Source: a virus. From it: a stretch of DNA of 32,658 nucleotides. Both the position numbers and the translations under genes were made by a program. Location: IMG/VR virus record IMGVR_UViG_3300013137_000068, positions 1 through 32,658 of that record. One strand, given 5' to 3'. Below are positions 1 through 29,658 of this stretch, in pieces (the first letter of the stretch is position 1; each line of letters begins with the position of its first letter). Below the pieces are notes generated by a model. The model saw only the letters and a program-made list of their open reading frames with translations. It searched no databases and had not been told where the DNA came from.

Positions 1-190
1 AACCTAATGGTTCACTTTGTGCAACGCTGGGCTTGTTCCTAAGTCCGAATCTTTTTATATTTTTGCTTGCATTAACATCTCTATCATGTACGGTATTGCA
101 TTGGGGGCAAGTCCATTCCCTATCTTTAAGAGCTATGCCTTATATTTTGGACATGGAATTTTGTTGTTCTTTATTCGGAAATATCCTATA
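1..190 (-). pseudogene. tnpB: TnpB (IS200/IS605 OrfB) C-terminal relic, runs off left edge
   Basis: On the minus strand, 139 down to 1 reads ALKDREWTCPQC, then HDRDVNASKNIKRFGL, the zinc-ribbon and RuvC-III end of TnpB, the RNA-guided nuclease of IS200/IS605 elements. The second Cys pair (CPQC) and the HDRDxNA motif are intact. Just upstream, at 142-140, there is an in-frame TAA. The sequence before it (to about 190) still resembles the FPSS...CS.CG part of the family but in shifted frames and without the first Cys pair. So this is a decayed copy, not a gene with a start. The true C-terminus and the element end lie outside the window. An active 5' part is excluded because nothing TnpB-like is found between 190 and 437. 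Confidence 0.72.
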
Positions 191-268
191 TTTATATGCT
201 TTTAACATCTATTTTTTTATATGTTCTATATATAAATATATAAAAATTTTATAAAATTGAATTTATTC

Positions 269-6077: not shown

Positions 6078-9000
6078 TTATTTACCATATGTTGACATAT
6101 TGCCAAAAAATCCATCTTTGTCAGTTGATGTTAATGGAACGCCACCAGAAGCCCCAGCTGGACCAACAATGTTAAAGTTTATAGTTACACTTGCCCACAT
6201 TGGTTGATTTTTTCCCTCAACCAAAGTCCATGGAGCGTCTGTGTAATCATAACTTACGCTATTAACAATAATATCATGGTTAAACCAATCGCCCAACTTT
6301 AAGTGACAGACTGGGGGTCTTGTAAATGAAAATCCACTTCCTTTATACGTTCCAGTTGCTTCATTGTATGATACATTAATAGTATTTTTAGCTGGCCTTG
6401 TAAGTTTTGCGAGAAATTCCATTTTCTTTTTGAAGTCTACCAAATTCCCAGAAAAATAAGCTGGTTGAAATACTAGATTCTTTATCATCTCTTTAATTCT
6501 TTTAACGTTATCTGATGGTTTAGATTCAACATAACCATCTACACCATCCTTTTCTTCATTCATTAAATAATCATACACATTAGTTACTGAATTATTAGAT
6601 TCTGAATAATTAATTTTAAAAGAGTTCCTATAAGCCTCTTCTTTTGCAGAATTCAGAGCATTTGTAAATTTTTTATTTGTAGAAGAAGATTCACTGCTAT
6701 CTGCTTGTTCTTCTTCTTTAGAATCGCCGCTTTTAGAATCACTCGATGATGTTACAGAAGTTTCTCCATTCTTAACTTCTCCGTCAGTTCCTCGTGCAGC
6801 ACTTGAATCATTAGAAGTTGAATTTTCTTTTTTGCTTTTTTCTTTTTCTTTTATATCTCTTTCAGAATCTTTTGATATGCCTTCTAAAAATGAGCCCACA
6901 AGTTGTTTGTAAGAAGATATATCTGTAAAGTTTCTATTTATTGGAATTTTAATGTAATCCATATTTGCATCTTGAGTTCTTCCAAGTAAAACACTTTCTG
7001 CATAATCTGTAAGAACATAAAAAGATATACCTCCGTCTCTTGATGAATTATTATAAGTATAAACAGCCTCTGGTCTTCCAAGAAAATTAGTAGAATTCCA
7101 ATTTGCAGAATCAGAATTGTGAAAACTATTAATATAAGGGGGGAAGAACATAACTCCATCTTCCCCACCAGATTCAGTTATAGCATAATTTTGAATACTG
7201 AACAAGAGACTACCCGCTTCCCTCGGAGCATAAGGATTTTGTATTGTATATTTTTGATAACCTATTCTTAAATTGCCTTTATCCACTTTATCATATCCTA
7301 ATATATAAGACTTGGGTGTATGTGTATATGGTATTCCTTGGATGTCTTTATAATTGTCTGAAAACTTAACATCTTTTGAAAATGCTATATCCCTTAATAT
7401 CTTTCTTACCCCTTTTGTTGGCGTAGCAGAATCAAATCCACCATCTTTTTTTGTTGGCGTAGCAGAATCAAATCCACTATCTTTTCCATGTACTGGGTTT
7501 CCAGGAATTGTTTTTGCTGCGATACTTTTATCTTTTGACCCATATTTTTCATCAAATTGTGTTTCAACATCTTTTTTAAAATAAGGAACGCCAGGTGATG
7601 TTAAAGATTTTGCAGAAATATTTGTAATTCTTTCCATTCTTTTTGTATTGAATAGGTCAAAATATAACTTCAATTCTTTAATGGTTTGCATATAATCAGC
7701 TCCTCCAGTTTCGTTTGGAGAAGTAAGATTGTTTATTTGGTCAGCTATAGTAACTATGGTTTTCGCTGGTCTTTCCGTTTCAAGTCCTCCAGTGTCGCTA
7801 AGAGAGAATGGGTTTGAATATTTTAAATACTGTCTTATTAGATTGTTGACATTGTTTTCAGGCAATTTTTGGCCTTTTTCGTCTTCGGGTTTGGATTTAT
7901 CAAAATTAAAATTTTGTCCAGTAATTCTTTGGTTGTTGAGATTATAATCAATTTTTTCATTTAAGGTATTATATACTACTGTTCCCTCAGAATCATAAAT
8001 AGAATAAGGTTGTAAGATTCTTTTATATGCCAACGCATTATCTGTTGCCATCATAAGGTTTCTTAAAATTGGAGAAGTTATGTTTGAATAATTTTTAACG
8101 CTAGAGTTTATAATATCTGCAGTATTCATTGGAAGTGCATCCTGTTCTGTAACGTCAGAAACAGAAGGCACTTTCATTGTATTGCTCAAAAGCATTCCCC
8201 CTTGACCATATTCTAAGTTTCTTCCTTCAGTATAATAATTAGATTGACCTTTATATTTGTTTCTCATTGTTAACAAATTTCTAAAGACCAATCCTTGAGT
8301 CCAAACTCCAGATACACCAACAAATAATGATGTTCCACCTGGTCCAAGAACATTAACTCCTAACATTCCCATTCCAGTATTTTTATTTAAATTTCTTATT
8401 CTTTCATTTTCTGCACTGTTTGCACTTCCATATTCATCATAATGTCCATCAATAGTTTGATGCGATGGAACATTTTTTGATAAATTAAAATCTCTTTCGC
8501 CGTCGGAAGAACTTTGTTGACCATATTGATTTTGATGTGTGTCAATAGTTTCATCACCTGGTACATTTGCAGCTAAATTATTGTTGTGATACTGAGTAGA
8601 ATCAGTTTGTAAATCAGATGTACTTGGAACATTGCTTGTCAAGTTTGCATCATGGTATGGAACAGAATCAACTTCCAAATTTGAAGTGCTTGGAACATTG
8701 TTTGCCAAGTTTGTATCATGATATGGGACAGAATCAACTTCCAAATCCGAAGTGCCTGGAACATTGTTTGCCAAGTTTGTATCATGATATGGGACAGAAT
8801 CAACTTCCAAATCCGAAATACTTGGGACATTGTTTGCCAAATTTGCATCGTGGTATGGAACAGAATCAACTTCTAAATCCGAAGTACTTGGAACATTATT
8901 TGCCAAATTTGCATCGTGGTATGGAACAGAGTCAACTTCTAAATCAGATGTGCTTGGAACATTGTTCGCCAAGTTTGCGTCATGATATGGAACAGAATCA

Positions 9001-10544
9001 ACTTCCAAATCGGTTTTTATTGAAACATTGTATGACAAATCACCATCCCTATAAGGCTGAGAATCCTTTTCTAAATCGGTTACAACAGGAGTATTATATG
9101 ACAAATCGCCATCCCTATAAGGAACAGAATCTTTTTCCAAATCTAAATCTTTGATTACATTATTTGATAAATCTCCGTCCCTGTATGGTTTTGATTCTTT
9201 TTCTAAGTCATGTTTTATTTCAACATTATTAGACAAATTTCCTTCCCTTGTTCCTTTTAAATCTTTCTCAAGGTCTGTTTCTTTGGGAACATTAAATGAC
9301 AAATTAAGTTTTTGATAATTTGTTGAATCAGTTGCTAAATCAGTTATTCTTGGTGTATTGTTTGATAAATTTTCTTTTTTAAATTCAACAGAGTCTGTTT
9401 CTAAGTCTGATTTTTTGAATTTATTATAAGATAAGTCTCCATTTCTAAATTCTTGAGATTCTTTTTCTAAATCATGCTTAATTGAATTATTATTGGATAA
9501 ATCAGCTTCTCTAAAAACTTTAGAATTTTTTTCAATATTACTTTCTTTTGGAGCATTATAGGATAAATCCGATTTCCTAAAATAAATAGAATCTTTCTCT
9601 AAATCAGAAACACCAGGAACATTATTAGATAAATTGTCCTTTCTGGTTCTTTGAGAATCAATTTCCAAATCGGTGTTTTTTGAATCATTGTTGGATAAGT
9701 TATTTTTTCTAAACTGTCCCGATTCTTCTTGTAAGTCGGTTGTTCTTGAAACATTATTAGATAAGTTTTTGTCCTTGAAATTTTCAGAATAAAGGCCAAT
9801 GTCCATTTCCTTAGTGTCATTATTGGATAAATTTTCTTTTCTAAATTGAACAGAGCCTGTTTCCAAGCTTGAGCCTTTAGATTTGTTTGCAGATAAATCA
9901 CCTTCTCTAAATCTTCTGGAATCAACTTCTAAATCGGTTTCTTTCGAATCGTTTTTCGATAAAGCATCTCTTCTATAATTCTTAGAATCATCAATCAAAT
10001 CAGAATTATTTGAAGAATTGTTACTTAAATTTGCTTGTCTATAAGATTCTTGTTTTTCGTTAATTTCTTTGTCAACATTTGGATTCGCTACATTTTTAGA
10101 AATGTTTTTTCTTCTTACCAGTTCTGATTCTTTCATTAAATCAGTAGTTGAACTTATGTTTTTGCTTAATAAATCCTTACGTTTTTTCTCAAATAAAGTT
10201 AATAATTCTACATTATCATTGTGCATTTTTTCTCTGGCCAACAAAGATTTTCTAAAATCTTCAGATTGTTCTTCCAATGAAAAATTCTTCTCAACAGCCT
10301 TTGCAAGTTGCTGTTCTCTTATATCTTCAGAAACTTCATTTAACTCTTGTTTAATTGGAGTTTCATTTTTGCTTAACAATTGACTCCTTACGGAAGGGTA
10401 AAAAACATCATATAGACTCTGGGGTTTTACCAGATTCTTAGACATAAGTTTATTTCTTATTTCAGACGAAAACTCACCAAAGAAATGGTTAATTTTGTCT
10501 TCCATGTTTTGTCTTTCTTCTTCGTAATCAAAATTTGTATACAT
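6078..10544 (-). CDS. Baseplate/tube-initiator-like protein with 22-residue repeat array
   Basis: Protein of 1488 residues, directly after the tape measure gene (1 nt gap). Residues about 21-665 are about 29 imperfect tandem repeats. The last 22 (182-665) are exactly 22 residues each, consensus DLExDSxxYRxxNLSNNVPxxT. The early units are more basic and diverged (RxxLLSKN). A Gly-rich stretch (about 720-750) and an Asn-rich region follow. The C-terminal part, about 1100-1488, contains GGEDGVMFFPPYINSF, a Ser/Glu/Lys-rich linker (about 1215-1290), and GDWFNHDIIVNSVSYDYTDAPW with a final ASVTINFNIVGPAG. That end resembles T4 gp48/gp54 baseplate tube proteins, which also follow the tape measure gene in T4. 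So the C-terminus probably docks in the baseplate and the repeats form an extended fibre or inner element. The function of the repeats is unknown. Confidence 0.62.
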   Translation of the reverse strand: MYTNFDYEEERQNMEDKINHFFGEFSSEIRNKLMSKNLVKPQSLYDVFYPSVRSQLLSKNETPIKQELNEVSEDIREQQLAKAVEKNFSLEEQSEDFRKSLLAREKMHNDNVELLTLFEKKRKDLLSKNISSTTDLMKESELVRRKNISKNVANPNVDKEINEKQESYRQANLSNNSSNNSDLIDDSKNYRRDALSKNDSKETDLEVDSRRFREGDLSANKSKGSSLETGSVQFRKENLSNNDTKEMDIGLYSENFKDKNLSNNVSRTTDLQEESGQFRKNNLSNNDSKNTDLEIDSQRTRKDNLSNNVPGVSDLEKDSIYFRKSDLSYNAPKESNIEKNSKVFREADLSNNNSIKHDLEKESQEFRNGDLSYNKFKKSDLETDSVEFKKENLSNNTPRITDLATDSTNYQKLNLSFNVPKETDLEKDLKGTREGNLSNNVEIKHDLEKESKPYRDGDLSNNVIKDLDLEKDSVPYRDGDLSYNTPVVTDLEKDSQPYRDGDLSYNVSIKTDLEVDSVPYHDANLANNVPSTSDLEVDSVPYHDANLANNVPSTSDLEVDSVPYHDANLANNVPSISDLEVDSVPYHDTNLANNVPGTSDLEVDSVPYHDTNLANNVPSTSNLEVDSVPYHDANLTSNVPSTSDLQTDSTQYHNNNLAANVPGDETIDTHQNQYGQQSSSDGERDFNLSKNVPSHQTIDGHYDEYGSANSAENERIRNLNKNTGMGMLGVNVLGPGGTSLFVGVSGVWTQGLVFRNLLTMRNKYKGQSNYYTEGRNLEYGQGGMLLSNTMKVPSVSDVTEQDALPMNTADIINSSVKNYSNITSPILRNLMMATDNALAYKRILQPYSIYDSEGTVVYNTLNEKIDYNLNNQRITGQNFNFDKSKPEDEKGQKLPENNVNNLIRQYLKYSNPFSLSDTGGLETERPAKTIVTIADQINNLTSPNETGGADYMQTIKELKLYFDLFNTKRMERITNISAKSLTSPGVPYFKKDVETQFDEKYGSKDKSIAAKTIPGNPVHGKDSGFDSATPTKKDGGFDSATPTKGVRKILRDIAFSKDVKFSDNYKDIQGIPYTHTPKSYILGYDKVDKGNLRIGYQKYTIQNPYAPREAGSLLFSIQNYAITESGGEDGVMFFPPYINSFHNSDSANWNSTNFLGRPEAVYTYNNSSRDGGISFYVLTDYAESVLLGRTQDANMDYIKIPINRNFTDISSYKQLVGSFLEGISKDSERDIKEKEKSKKENSTSNDSSAARGTDGEVKNGETSVTSSSDSKSGDSKEEEQADSSESSSTNKKFTNALNSAKEEAYRNSFKINYSESNNSVTNVYDYLMNEEKDGVDGYVESKPSDNVKRIKEMIKNLVFQPAYFSGNLVDFKKKMEFLAKLTRPAKNTINVSYNEATGTYKGSGFSFTRPPVCHLKLGDWFNHDIIVNSVSYDYTDAPWTLVEGKNQPMWASVTINFNIVGPAGASGGVPLTSTDKDGFFGNMSTYGK
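7413..7484. repeat. Tandem 36-bp duplication
   Basis: Two copies of ttgttggcgtagcagaatca plus flank start at 7415 and 7451, period 36. They encode SGFDSATPTK and GGFDSATPTK in the 1488-residue baseplate protein. It is unrelated to the 66-bp array in the same gene, so short in-frame expansion has happened there more than once. Confidence 0.85.
8550..10001. repeat. Tandem array of twenty-two 66-bp units
   Basis: Twenty-two units of exactly 66 bp encode the 22-residue repeats (residues 182-665). Six adjacent units at 8616-9011 are nearly identical at DNA level (DLEVDSVPYHDANLANNVPSTS with few changes). Units toward 10001 have drifted. Older, irregular 22-24-residue units extend to about 10480. 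The gradient points to recent growth of the array at the 8.6-9.0 kb end. Confidence 0.92.
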
Positions 10545-19465: not shown

Positions 19466-20047
19466 ATGGACTCAAAAACTGTATTAATTGGAACAATTAT
19501 AGTCTTTATAACATTTTGTATAATTTACGAATTTCTAAAAGAAAGAAGTAAAACTAAAAAAGAAAAAGCTAACAGAGACGAACAAAATGATTTTTTTAAA
19601 AAAATTGGAGTACAATTACTTGAAAATTCAGCGGTTAATAAAGAATTACTAAGATACTTAAAGGTTTCCAGTCAAAAGTATACAGAGGAAATTACTGAAT
19701 CTCAAATGAGAATAGTGATAGAATCAATATTTGATAATTCTCAAAATGAAATTCTGAATTATGTCTCAAAAATTATGAAAGAGAACCATATTAAAGGAAA
19801 CGAAAAAGAAATTGTAATTAAAATAAAATCATTCGTAAGTAATAGATACCACAAAGATTCCTTGTTACTAAAAGAATTTAAGTTCAGAGAAACAACATTG
19901 TATGAACAAATGAAGTCCGAATGGAAAGATTACGTAAATGAAATCGTTATTGGTTGCGTAATTAAAGAAAAGGGGGAAAAAGCTCTTCAGGGAGCTTTAC
20001 AAAATGCTTTTGACAGTTTCAAATTCGATATTATAGACCGTTGTTAA
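19466..20047 (+). CDS. N-terminally membrane-anchored protein, unknown function
   Basis: Protein of 193 residues. One hydrophobic segment (residues about 5-23, VLIGTIIVFITFCIIYEFL) followed by Lys/Arg-rich sequence implies an anchor with the rest in the cytoplasm. The body is helical and charged, no family recognised, with one late Cys pair (about 168 and the last residue). It is on the plus strand, divergent from the nuclease gene, and is followed at once by a decayed IS200/IS605 end. It shares the promoter-like motif with the other accessory genes. A membrane-located accessory role is plausible; nothing in the sequence names the target. Confidence 0.7.
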   Translation: MDSKTVLIGTIIVFITFCIIYEFLKERSKTKKEKANRDEQNDFFKKIGVQLLENSAVNKELLRYLKVSSQKYTEEITESQMRIVIESIFDNSQNEILNYVSKIMKENHIKGNEKEIVIKIKSFVSNRYHKDSLLLKEFKFRETTLYEQMKSEWKDYVNEIVIGCVIKEKGEKALQGALQNAFDSFKFDIIDRC

Positions 20048-20307
20048 CATATACTTCAATTTCTTAATTATCTGTTTCTAACACCAGTGTATTCTGTCGC
20101 CTTTACTCTCTTAATACTTACAGCAAACCTCCATAATCGTCCAAAGTCCATTATATCGAGAAACTGAACGTCTCTCCAGTGACACAAACCAAAAAGGCGA
20201 ATCTTCTCTTGGTATAGACAGTGTAAGACAGGGCAACAGAAATGCGGAACTGCAACCGTTATTTTAAAACCAGAATCCCACGTGCTTCAGCCGTGGGAGT
20301 ATGTCAA
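20048..20307 (+). mobile_element. Decayed IS200/IS605-family element: tnpB tail and right end
   Basis: No intact gene is present. On the plus strand one frame at about 20160-20265 reads ETERLSSDTNQKGESSLGID, then RQGNRNAELQPLF and a stop, and resembles the 3' end of a tnpB gene. It is followed by gaatcccacgtgcttcag, then ccgtgggagtatgTCAA. The hairpin (stem TCCCACG 20276-20282 with CGTGGGA 20292-20298) and the final TCAA (20304-20307) are typical for the right end of these elements, where the omega RNA's last stem and the cleavage site lie. The element's 5' part is lost. Its orientation is opposite to the polymerase/nucleotidase genes. The identification rests on the end motif more than on protein similarity. 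Confidence 0.62.
20276..20307 (+). ncRNA. Omega-RNA 3' stem and right-end cleavage motif (remnant)
   Basis: A 7-bp stem, loop TGCTTCAGC with an inner GC/GC pairing, then AGTATG and TCAA. In active IS200/IS605 elements the RNA scaffold ends here and the flanking DNA supplies the guide; the flank is ATCAAATAATTTAATACAG. With tnpB lost at this locus, activity would need a TnpB from elsewhere. Confidence 0.45.
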
Positions 20308-20741
20308 ATCAAATAATTTAATACAGATTGCCAGCTGGGAAATTTTGCACTTCCAAAAGGAATGATTTCCCAGATTGGAGTAAGCAAACCATGTTGTGGT
20401 AAATCATCTATCAAATAATCTCCCCTCAATAAAGTTTTATCGCATGACAATATTAATCGTTCACATTCTTTAAAACCAAAATACTTTTCAATCCAAATTC
20501 TTTTTTCCGTATAAGAAAGAGGATTATGCACAGACGGACGGCTTAATATAAAAACCTCGTATTTTTCTTTAAGTTTTTTGTAGGATTCAACAGCGCCGTC
20601 AATAGGTGGAAGGTTTTCAAAAAATTTAAACTGACTCTGTGGGAATAAAATTCTTGGTTCTTTGGAGAGTGCCCTTTGTTTTGACCCCTCAAAGTCACAC
20701 AAAACATCATCCATGTCAATATATACCGTTTTCTTTTCCAT
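20304..20741 (-). CDS. 5'-nucleotidase of the NT5C family (HAD fold), 3' end touched by IS end
   Basis: Protein of 145 residues. HAD motif I is DMDDVLCDF (residues 9-17), with Asp9 as nucleophile and Asp11 as acid/base. Motif II is the Ser in ILSRPS. Motif III/IV is K (in CDKTLLRGDYLIDD), with the closing Asp pair. The typical end FPSWQSVLNYL is present. Family members remove phosphate from dNMPs or NMPs; a phage copy would tune nucleotide pools for its own polymerase, whose gene ends 1 nt upstream. The stop codon TGA (20306-20304) is part of the TCAA at the end of the decayed IS element, so the last one or two residues may be altered from the ancestor. The IS hairpin just downstream may also end this transcript. 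Confidence 0.85.
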   Translation of the reverse strand: MEKKTVYIDMDDVLCDFEGSKQRALSKEPRILFPQSQFKFFENLPPIDGAVESYKKLKEKYEVFILSRPSVHNPLSYTEKRIWIEKYFGFKECERLILSCDKTLLRGDYLIDDLPQHGLLTPIWEIIPFGSAKFPSWQSVLNYLI

Positions 20742-26664: not shown

Positions 26665-29658
26665 TCAAGTCTTTTTAACAGGAGATAATAACCAACTAAT
26701 ATCGTCGCTATCATCCTGATTATTTTGTTCTTTAGATAAATCATTAAAGAATATTCCTCCAGCATCTGGGGGAATATCTGAAACATTTTCATTTGTATGA
26801 TTTGAGGAAAAATCATTTCCAACAATTGTTTTACTTATATAGCCTATTGCATCAAGCATTCCTTTATACATTTCTTTTGTTGCAGCAGCATTTTGATATT
26901 CAGTATCTCTGATAAACAGTCCAATTGCCAAAGCAAAAATTAAGTCATCATTTTTTCCTCTTTCGGCTTCTGGTCTATCACCATTTTGAATAAATGTTCT
27001 AAACTCATTCATTATATGTTTAGAATAAATTTTCAAAGTTCCTTCTCTTAAGTGAACTCGTAAATTATTCACAACAAGCGGTCTGGTTCTTTTTGTTGTT
27101 TGGAATCCTGGGATAACTTCATTTTCCCCAACTTTATAATCATAAGGTCTAACATATATTTCCTGAATATTCTTTGAATAATACATTCTACCGTAATTCA
27201 TTTTTCTATTTAAATCAATAGCTGTAGCTAAACCAAAACTATTGCACTCAACAACAAGATATGCTTCTCCGCAATCCATTGCTGAATTAAAAATTACATG
27301 AGCAAATAAATCAGGGGCAACTTTATCTCTGTATTCTCCCGCTATTTCTAATGTGTCTATATCAATTATCTCAATAGTAGAGTAGTCCGTGCCATCGCCC
27401 CTTGCTACGTCACAATTATGAGTAGTTATATGGTGACACATAAAAGTATGAGTATCACATTCAAAATTATAAACTTTTCCTGTAAACTTACTCTTTTTAA
27501 TATCTTTTATTTTAAAATAAATAAATTCTTCATCATTACTAAAATGACAAGAACTTATAATTCTTTTATTTTTATTATAAAATTGTGAAATATCAAATTT
27601 ATTTAATTTTATATCAGTTTTATCATTTAATAATTTTACCAGCATTAAGCTATCAAAATTAAACAAATTTAAACTATAACATTTTTTAGAACAAACTTCT
27701 CTTTCTTTAATTATTTGTATTTTAGCATCTCTTAATTTGTGTATCCCAGAAATTATTCCAATAGAAAATAAAATGTCCTGAAAAGATTCTAATAATGTCA
27801 AATTTATACTTATAAAAGATATTTTTGAATTTTTCTTATTATTTTTTGTTGTTTCCACCCAACATCCATCACTATCAAAATATCCTTTAATTAATTCTAA
27901 TTTGTATTCTTTTGAAATATATTTAACCCATTCGCTTATTTTTTTTCCATCTGAATATTGTCCAAAATTTTCCAATAAAAAATAATACAATTCTTTACTA
28001 TTAAAGGTGATTTCATATGCTGAATCTTTTTCTGTTATTGAAATTGTTCTATTAAAAAGCTCATTAATTATTTTTTCAATTTTTTCAACATAAAAAAATT
28101 CTTTTTTATTAAAACATAATAATATAGAATAACTATCTTTATATTTACCTATCCACCCATCTCCCAACCACATACCAATAAACCACCAAAAATTTTTGTT
28201 GTCTATAGGAGAATTTATCACAAAATCTTTTCTTACATTATTATTAAGACACCATTTTTCATTTATATTAATATCTAATTCTTTTTTATATGTATTTGGA
28301 ACTTTAATCCAATCTCCTGTTTTTAAGTTTTCAGTTTTAGTGTATTTAAAATTAAAATCCCAATATCTTTTCCCTTCTTTTTTTGTAGCTGAATCATATA
28401 ATCTTTTAGTTTTGTTATTTTGACTAACTAAAATTGGGTGTTCTTTAGTAAATGTTGTTGTCCTATATGTATTATCAACTTTAATTTCAAACACATCTTC
28501 ATCAACAACATCATATATTTGTTTATTTATTACATTAATATAATTGCCATTTTCATCAACTAATTTATCACAGAAAGTAACATCTTGAATTTCTTTAAGT
28601 CCATCATTTGTTAAAACCATTTCTTCTGGTAAAAGACATCCAAAAATGTATTTATGTCCTTCCACATATGGTTTATATATTACAAAATTGGTTTCATATG
28701 TAACAAACCTTTCTCCAGGTTTATTCTTGTAATCATAATATGTTTTATTTTTTTCAATTAATTTGTATTCGTCTAAAAGTAAACGTTTTTCATATTTACT
28801 AATGAGTTCATTTTCGATAGCCAAACGTTTTGACCCCTCAAATGATAAGTCAAGTTCTTGTGAAATCTTAACCCTATCAAACTGCATTCTTTTGCATTCA
28901 GACTCATACCAAGGACTCCAATAAGTCTTTTCTCCACTTTCATTTTCTCTTAATTCAAGACCTTCTGCACAATATGGGTTTTGTGTCCAATGTACTTTCG
29001 TTGGCACAAAATCATCAGAATTAAAATCATTTTCCTTTTTTTCAGCTTCAGACCAAATTGAATAATATAAATTAGAAGTTCCATTTGGGGTAGAAACCAT
29101 GATACATTTTCCTTGAGTTGCAGATAAAGCTAAACCAGCTGCCATCCAAATTGTATCAGCATTTTCAATAAAAGCAGTTTCATCAAGAACAAGAAGTGTT
29201 AATGAGTCTCCACGACCAGCTTCTGGACTACTTGCTTTAGCTTGGGCGTATGAATTATTTTCGAGGCTAACGTATTTTTGATTGCAAATAACAGTGTTCC
29301 CCTTACCAGGTTTTAACCATTTTGGAGTATAGTTTATAAATTGTTTTACTATAGAAAGGAACCTAATAGCACCGTCTCCGTCATTAGCAATAATTAATAT
29401 TTTTTCATCTTTTCTAAACATTAATCTCCAGGCAACATATCCCGCAGTAATTACCGACAAACCAGTCTGGCGACTTTTTAAAACAACATTATTTCTATGT
29501 TTATGGAATTTGTAAACGCAGTCTTCTTGATACTCGAAACACGTCATTTTTTCAACACGCTGTTTGTGTGCATCAAAAACGTACCCATAATTGTTTAAGA
29601 AGTATATGGGGTCAGAAGCACAATAAATAAATTCTTTTTGATAATTATTAAAATCCAT
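26665..29658 (-). CDS. terL: Terminase large subunit interrupted by an intein
   Basis: Precursor of 997 residues; after splicing about 589. The N-extein (1-340) holds the ATPase: Walker A SRQTGLS (62-68), Walker B LLVLDET (155-161) with the catalytic Glu, and a coupling motif STPNGTS (189-195). The C-extein (749-997) opens with CDVARGDGTDYS, the RNase H-like nuclease strand with the first metal-binding Asp (750), and continues with VVECNSFG and KNDDLIFALAIGLF carrying the other acidic residues. It packages DNA into the head and cuts the concatemer, working with the portal encoded next. TATTTATAA lies 15 nt before the ATG. The intein splits the protein one residue before the catalytic Asp; without splicing the nuclease cannot form. 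Confidence 0.93.
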   Translation of the reverse strand: MDFNNYQKEFIYCASDPIYFLNNYGYVFDAHKQRVEKMTCFEYQEDCVYKFHKHRNNVVLKSRQTGLSVITAGYVAWRLMFRKDEKILIIANDGDGAIRFLSIVKQFINYTPKWLKPGKGNTVICNQKYVSLENNSYAQAKASSPEAGRGDSLTLLVLDETAFIENADTIWMAAGLALSATQGKCIMVSTPNGTSNLYYSIWSEAEKKENDFNSDDFVPTKVHWTQNPYCAEGLELRENESGEKTYWSPWYESECKRMQFDRVKISQELDLSFEGSKRLAIENELISKYEKRLLLDEYKLIEKNKTYYDYKNKPGERFVTYETNFVIYKPYVEGHKYIFGCLLPEEMVLTNDGLKEIQDVTFCDKLVDENGNYINVINKQIYDVVDEDVFEIKVDNTYRTTTFTKEHPILVSQNNKTKRLYDSATKKEGKRYWDFNFKYTKTENLKTGDWIKVPNTYKKELDININEKWCLNNNVRKDFVINSPIDNKNFWWFIGMWLGDGWIGKYKDSYSILLCFNKKEFFYVEKIEKIINELFNRTISITEKDSAYEITFNSKELYYFLLENFGQYSDGKKISEWVKYISKEYKLELIKGYFDSDGCWVETTKNNKKNSKISFISINLTLLESFQDILFSIGIISGIHKLRDAKIQIIKEREVCSKKCYSLNLFNFDSLMLVKLLNDKTDIKLNKFDISQFYNKNKRIISSCHFSNDEEFIYFKIKDIKKSKFTGKVYNFECDTHTFMCHHITTHNCDVARGDGTDYSTIEIIDIDTLEIAGEYRDKVAPDLFAHVIFNSAMDCGEAYLVVECNSFGLATAIDLNRKMNYGRMYYSKNIQEIYVRPYDYKVGENEVIPGFQTTKRTRPLVVNNLRVHLREGTLKIYSKHIMNEFRTFIQNGDRPEAERGKNDDLIFALAIGLFIRDTEYQNAAATKEMYKGMLDAIGYISKTIVGNDFSSNHTNENVSDIPPDAGGIFFNDLSKEQNNQDDSDDISWLLSPVKKT
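27415..28638 (-). other. Intein with LAGLIDADG homing endonuclease in terL
   Basis: Residues 341-748 of the precursor, 408 residues. Block A: CLLPEEMVLTNDGLKEI with Cys1 as nucleophile. Block B: TTTFTKEHPILV with the Thr and His. LAGLIDADG helices: FIGMWLGDG (493-501) and LIKGYFDSDG (589-598), each keeping an acidic catalytic residue. Blocks F/G: GKVYNFECDTHTFMCHHITTHN with terminal His-Asn, followed by Cys+1 of the extein. All residues for splicing and for DNA cleavage are present, so it is probably a full, mobile intein. AT-content is even higher than in the extein parts. Confidence 0.92.

Follow-up and report, generated by a model that had tools for sequence, protein, structure and literature searches.

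An IS200/IS605 right end at the stop codon of a phage nucleotidase gene

How does a hairpin with the hallmarks of a transposable element come to lie exactly where a phage gene ends, and what did the element leave behind? The question arises in virus record IMGVR_UViG_3300013137_000068, whose 32,658 nt form the window analysed here, at the 3′ end of a nucleotidase gene. An earlier note, made from the sequence alone, had described this place as the well-kept right end of a TnpB element whose body is lost, with a terminal TCAA that doubles as the stop codon of the nucleotidase on the other strand.

The hairpin and its relatives

The plus strand at 20273–20307 reads GAATCCCACGTGCTTCAGCCGTGGGAGTATGTCAA, an order of GAAT, a stem of 7 bp that is extended inwards by two pairs (GC/GC) and has one extra T, a 5-base spacer, and TCAA (Table 1). 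The hairpin TCCCACG...CGTGGGA with its terminal TCAA is therefore present as the earlier note stated, with GAAT preceding it, and the last 50 nt are predicted to form a stable structure (−15.7 kcal/mol). The cleavage code of IS608, an IS200/IS605 element from Helicobacter pylori, consists of right cleavage site TCAA, right guide GAAT, TTAC as target and left cleavage site, and left guide AAAG (PMC5934647). Common to IS608 and the window are the GAAT guide, an imperfect palindrome, the TCAA site and insertion 3′ of TTAC (PMC5934647), but the window keeps the right end only and lacks the left end, tnpA and tnpB.

Table 1 Features around the hairpin in the window.
Feature	Position	Strand	Basis
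orf193, convergent neighbour, same place in relatives	19466..20047	+	gene context
Relic of methyltransferase-like gene, C-terminal ~47 codons (about residues 178–224 of 225–226)	20071..20211	−	similarity to intact genes
IS200/IS605 remnant, right-hand ~95 nt	20213..20307	+	right edge: empty-site comparison; left edge approximate, end of methyltransferase-like similarity
Right guide GR = GAAT	20273..20276	+	sequence; same tetranucleotide as IS608 GR; invariant in nine tnpB-linked right ends, which were chosen for starting with GAAT, so that the invariance is a selection criterion
Right-end imperfect palindrome TCCCACG-T-GC-TTCA-GC-CGTGGGA	about 20275..20298	+	sequence, fold, covariance model
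Right cleavage site CR = TCAA	20304..20307	+	sequence, empty-site comparison, IS608 CR = TCAA
NT5C-type nucleotidase, stop codon inside element	20304..20741	−	PF06941, E 6.8e-14
Would-be TnpB guide flank, 16 nt	20308..20323	+	sequence; guide placed as in ISDra2 reRNA

The exact hairpin is absent from the viral and genome collections searched, and neither the region nor the 26-aa frame upstream of the hairpin found a match among phages and plasmids. A degenerate hairpin pattern matched 21 viral-contig stretches, many of them directly after tnpB; the version with the extra T led to a 319-kb phage contig, L043 (IMGVR_UViG_3300024239_000013), and degenerate versions to L043, L044 and L045. Because such loci are retrieved through the hairpin itself, a more independent test was made with 42 tnpB loci fetched via a coding pattern. 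Nine distinct GAAT...TCAA right ends downstream of these genes were aligned into a covariance model; as they had been selected for GAAT and TCAA, those eight bases cannot count as independent evidence, whereas the hairpin between them can. Across the window and five loci of relatives from its phage group (L046–L050; 107 kb in all), the model gave a single match, at 20273–20307 (35.4 bits, E 3.2e-6), and none in the relatives. The right end of L043 and those next to tnpB that the hairpin pattern had retrieved are matched by the model as well. In Rfam the region matched no family, either at the gathering score or with the limit relaxed to E 5.

L043 carries a complete element, with a full tnpA (PF01797) followed by tnpB (PF01385, PF07282), and ends in GAATCCCACGTGTTTCAACCGTGGGAGTATGTCAA. 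This right end is identical to that of the window at 41 of 46 positions, the extra T of the stem and the tail TATGTCAA among them; the ~50 nt that precede it in the window relic do not align, leaving only the last ~46 nt alignable with this nearest full element. We also count towards an IS200/IS605 origin the GC content (41% at 20048–20300 versus 32% for the window) and the very short hairpin elements of other phages that share the tail TATGTCAA and in most cases follow a TTAC. In its strict form (GAAT, stem of 7 bp or more, 5-nt spacer, TCAA), the grammar is absent from the five relative loci and occurred 11 times in 1000 dinucleotide-shuffled windows, both strands included, and a loose version occurred 28 times in 100 dinucleotide shuffles of the window. 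The bare grammar thus arises by chance with a probability of about 1% per window, and the case rests on the evidence of sequence and context. The earlier note had pointed to a hairpin in relatives with no IS history as the observation that would speak against its reading, and no such hairpin occurs in L046–L050. On the strength of the model match and the near-identical end of a complete tnpA–tnpB element, its assignment holds, and the sequence comparisons firmly identify 20273–20307 as an IS200/IS605 right end with IS608-type grammar.

The nucleotidase stop codon and the empty site

Read on the minus strand, TCAA is a TGA stop (the complement of TCA at 20304–20306) plus the third base of the last nucleotidase codon, ATT. 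The nucleotidase and its neighbours are conserved among related large phages, four of which have the site in its empty form: L002, a 372-kb contig whose nucleotidase is 64% identical to that of the window, and L101, L103 and L104, whose nucleotidases are 48% identical to it and near-identical to one another. In all four the gene ends TAC TTA ATG TAA TG (protein YLM*), giving TTAC/ATTAAG on the plus strand, where the window has TGTCAA/ATCAAA. Between the empty and the filled form, ATG TAA becomes ATT TGA and YLM* becomes YLI*, at the same position. The IS608 rule of insertion 3′ of TTAC puts TCAA exactly at the former TTAC and so yields ATT TGA, as observed. These relatives set the right boundary of the element between TCAA and the flank, and they agree with insertion without target duplication, as the empty sites read TTAC/AT; the window's own left TTAC has been deleted. 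Since L101, L103 and L104 appear to represent one lineage in near-identical copies, only about two of the four empty sites count as independent. At the site in L002, the closest relative, TTAC overlaps the start of an RNase H gene.

Both points that the earlier note had raised here, the TCAA as stop codon and the value of relatives without the scar, are borne out by this before-and-after comparison, by which the right end supplies the nucleotidase stop codon. We also considered whether the insertion had shortened the protein. The nucleotidase C-termini of L047 and L048 are longer, by 3 residues, and these loci have no TTAC at that position; others too have a few more residues and lack the TTAC. 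The YLM* relatives nonetheless make an unchanged ancestral length the likely one.

What remains of the element and what was lost

The earlier note had assigned all of 20048–20307 to the right end. Much of this stretch has another source: ~20071–20211, on the minus strand, is the relic of a methyltransferase-like gene (63% identity, E 4e-17; further matches at 56–58%, E 2e-17 and 3e-16), which limits the element to about 20213–20307. The match ends at 20211 and a gapped BLAST match extends to 20232, fixing the left junction to within ~20 nt. L047 and L048 have the intact gene (225–226 aa; weak PF02005 similarity, E 2e-4, under the cut-off) between the nucleotidase and orf193, and its first ~177 codons are missing from the window. 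L002 has no methyltransferase-like gene, with the RNase H gene at the site, and it lost the gene by a different route from the window. No relative shows the exact ancestral arrangement, the closest, L002, being the one that lacks this gene.

To the left of the element remnant there is no left end with an AAAG guide and palindrome, the methyltransferase-like relic lying there instead, and between 20047 and 20304 there is neither room nor an open reading frame for a Y1 transposase TnpA. The locus has no TnpB similarity, and the 32.7-kb record, itself a fragment, contains no intact tnpB. One candidate for a TnpB C-terminus, the frame at 20187–20264, proved unsupported: its first ~25 nt belong to the methyltransferase-like gene on the other strand, and the back-translated pattern of its GNRNAELQP segment had no matches.

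The arrangement is best accounted for, with a probability of roughly nine in ten, by an IS200/IS605 insertion at the nucleotidase stop followed by deletion into the methyltransferase-like gene. An element with IS608-type ends would have inserted directly 3′ of the TTAC that overlaps the nucleotidase stop (coding strand ...ATG TAA), so that its 3′ terminus, TCAA, came to abut the nucleotidase and the gene now ended in ATT TGA, a change of Met to Ile at equal length with the stop inside the element. One or more later deletions, with one end within the element and the other within the downstream methyltransferase-like gene, would then have removed the left end, the transposase, tnpB if there was one, and the first ~177 methyltransferase-like codons, leaving ~95 nt of right end fused to ~47 codons of the gene. 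One deletion reaching from inside the element to inside the gene is enough to produce the arrangement, with insertion presumably the first event and deletion the second, and we count in favour of this history that the relic sits where L047 and L048 have the intact gene. The survival of the right end may be due to the stop codon in its last bases, or simply to the short time that has passed. Having no left end, the remnant cannot move.

The lost element plausibly carried tnpB, as the nearest full element does. Of the lost tnpB body in the earlier note, the loss of the element body stands; tnpB itself would have to be supplied from the L043 comparison, no tnpB-coding sequence being recognisable in the relic. 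It is rather unlikely that the element never had tnpB and was a tnpA-only (IS200-like) or minimal non-autonomous (PATE/MITE-like) derivative cut by deletion, an account that departs from the insertion and deletion set out above only in what was lost. It would fit a relic free of tnpB-coding similarity and the hairpin-only derivatives, very short and ending in the same tail, that are known in other phages, but those carry the left guide AAAG before the hairpin where the window has the right guide GAAT, like tnpB-adjacent ends, and the nearest full-length match has both tnpA and tnpB.

The short derivatives are an observation in their own right. They span about 40–55 nt and consist of TTAC, 9–18 nt, AAAG, a CCCACG..CGTGGG hairpin and the tail TATGTCAA; they occur in L004, L007, L008, L012, L016, L017, L018, L019 and L021 and, where TTAC is not clear, in L006, L009, L011 and L014. 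No tnpA or tnpB similarity was found within up to 2.5 kb on each side. They look like hybrids of a left guide and a right tail; the two hairpins of a single element may have recombined to produce them, and some of them could be mobilised in trans. One of them, at about 3020–3200 of L021, lies at a TTAC directly after an open reading frame, PCSPRKAKKLLKEKRANVIKRSPFTLK, which we take to resemble the start of an IscB-type RRXRR protein, and may interrupt an iscB-like gene.

A second tnpB relic occupies positions 1–207 (minus strand) of the window and runs off the record end. Its first ~16 TnpB codons (MLKAYKYRIFPNKEQQ) are joined to a C-terminal stretch with the zinc ribbon (PF07282, E 5e-11), with an in-frame stop; the two halves have their counterparts about 1 kb apart in the intact tnpB of L082 and L093, which marks an internal deletion of about 1 kb. 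Other features of the record are a terminase large subunit with an intein at 26665–29658 (minus strand; LAGLIDADG_3, E 2e-9; Intein_splicing below cut-off) and, at 6078–10544 (minus strand), a protein of 1488 aa whose N-terminal half contains a long run of ~22-residue repeats (DLEVDSVPYHDANLANNVPSTS). The DnaE genes of L047 (about 7272–7400) and L048 (about 8663–8770) contain inserts at different gene positions, with ends resembling intein C-termini (NGICVSNSH, GIGVHNSA).

A guide RNA, a terminator or a scar

The ISDra2 reRNA is about 150 nt long, including about 16 nt of guide (PMC8612924), which leaves a scaffold of ~134 nt. The window resembles this and the TnpB omega-RNA in having a right-end hairpin followed by a flank in guide position; it differs in that the relic is shorter than the ISDra2 scaffold and without tnpB. 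The element remnant comes to ~95 nt at most, against ~134 nt by the ISDra2 yardstick, and only ~46 nt align with the full element of L043, so that by this analogy a working omega-RNA is unlikely, and the RNA-guided role that the earlier note had read into the right end finds no support.

Selection could in principle have kept the truncated end as a small stand-alone guide RNA, served by a TnpB elsewhere in the phage or host and aimed at the empty TTAC of sister phages, or as a regulatory hairpin, and we consider either very improbable. The guide version gains from the well-preserved terminus, from a flank in guide position whose match would be the empty-site allele with TTAC as TAM, and from the TnpB-bearing elements of other large phages. 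The flank is antisense to the C-terminal codons of the nucleotidase. It agrees with the empty site of L002 at only 11 of 16 positions, however, and against this version stand also the shortness of the alignable end, the gene debris on its 5′ side, a fold of the 260-nt region 20048–20307 that is no better than shuffles (z −0.99) and the missing intact tnpB of the record. A native, bidirectional terminator of transcription that separates the nucleotidase operon from the convergent orf193 would suit a stable hairpin at a gene's 3′ end, but is the least credible account and seems largely refuted by the IS matches: the hairpin is near-identical to the ends of complete elements and missing from L046–L050, 19400–20800 has no intrinsic-terminator-like site on either strand and no T-run, and GAAT and TCAA would go unexplained.

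The right end at the nucleotidase stop is thus most readily seen as a scar, probably without function. It is a new and well-resolved example of a known, ordinary and well-documented kind, and it leaves the understanding of how IS200/IS605 elements work unchanged. What it adds is a case resolved to the base in which a TTAC-targeting element inserts where a gene ends and leaves that gene unharmed, because the target holds the complement of the TAA stop (GTAA) and the TCAA of the element provides a new stop, TGA. It is also a case of IS-associated gene loss in a large phage, in which the neighbouring methyltransferase-like gene was truncated.
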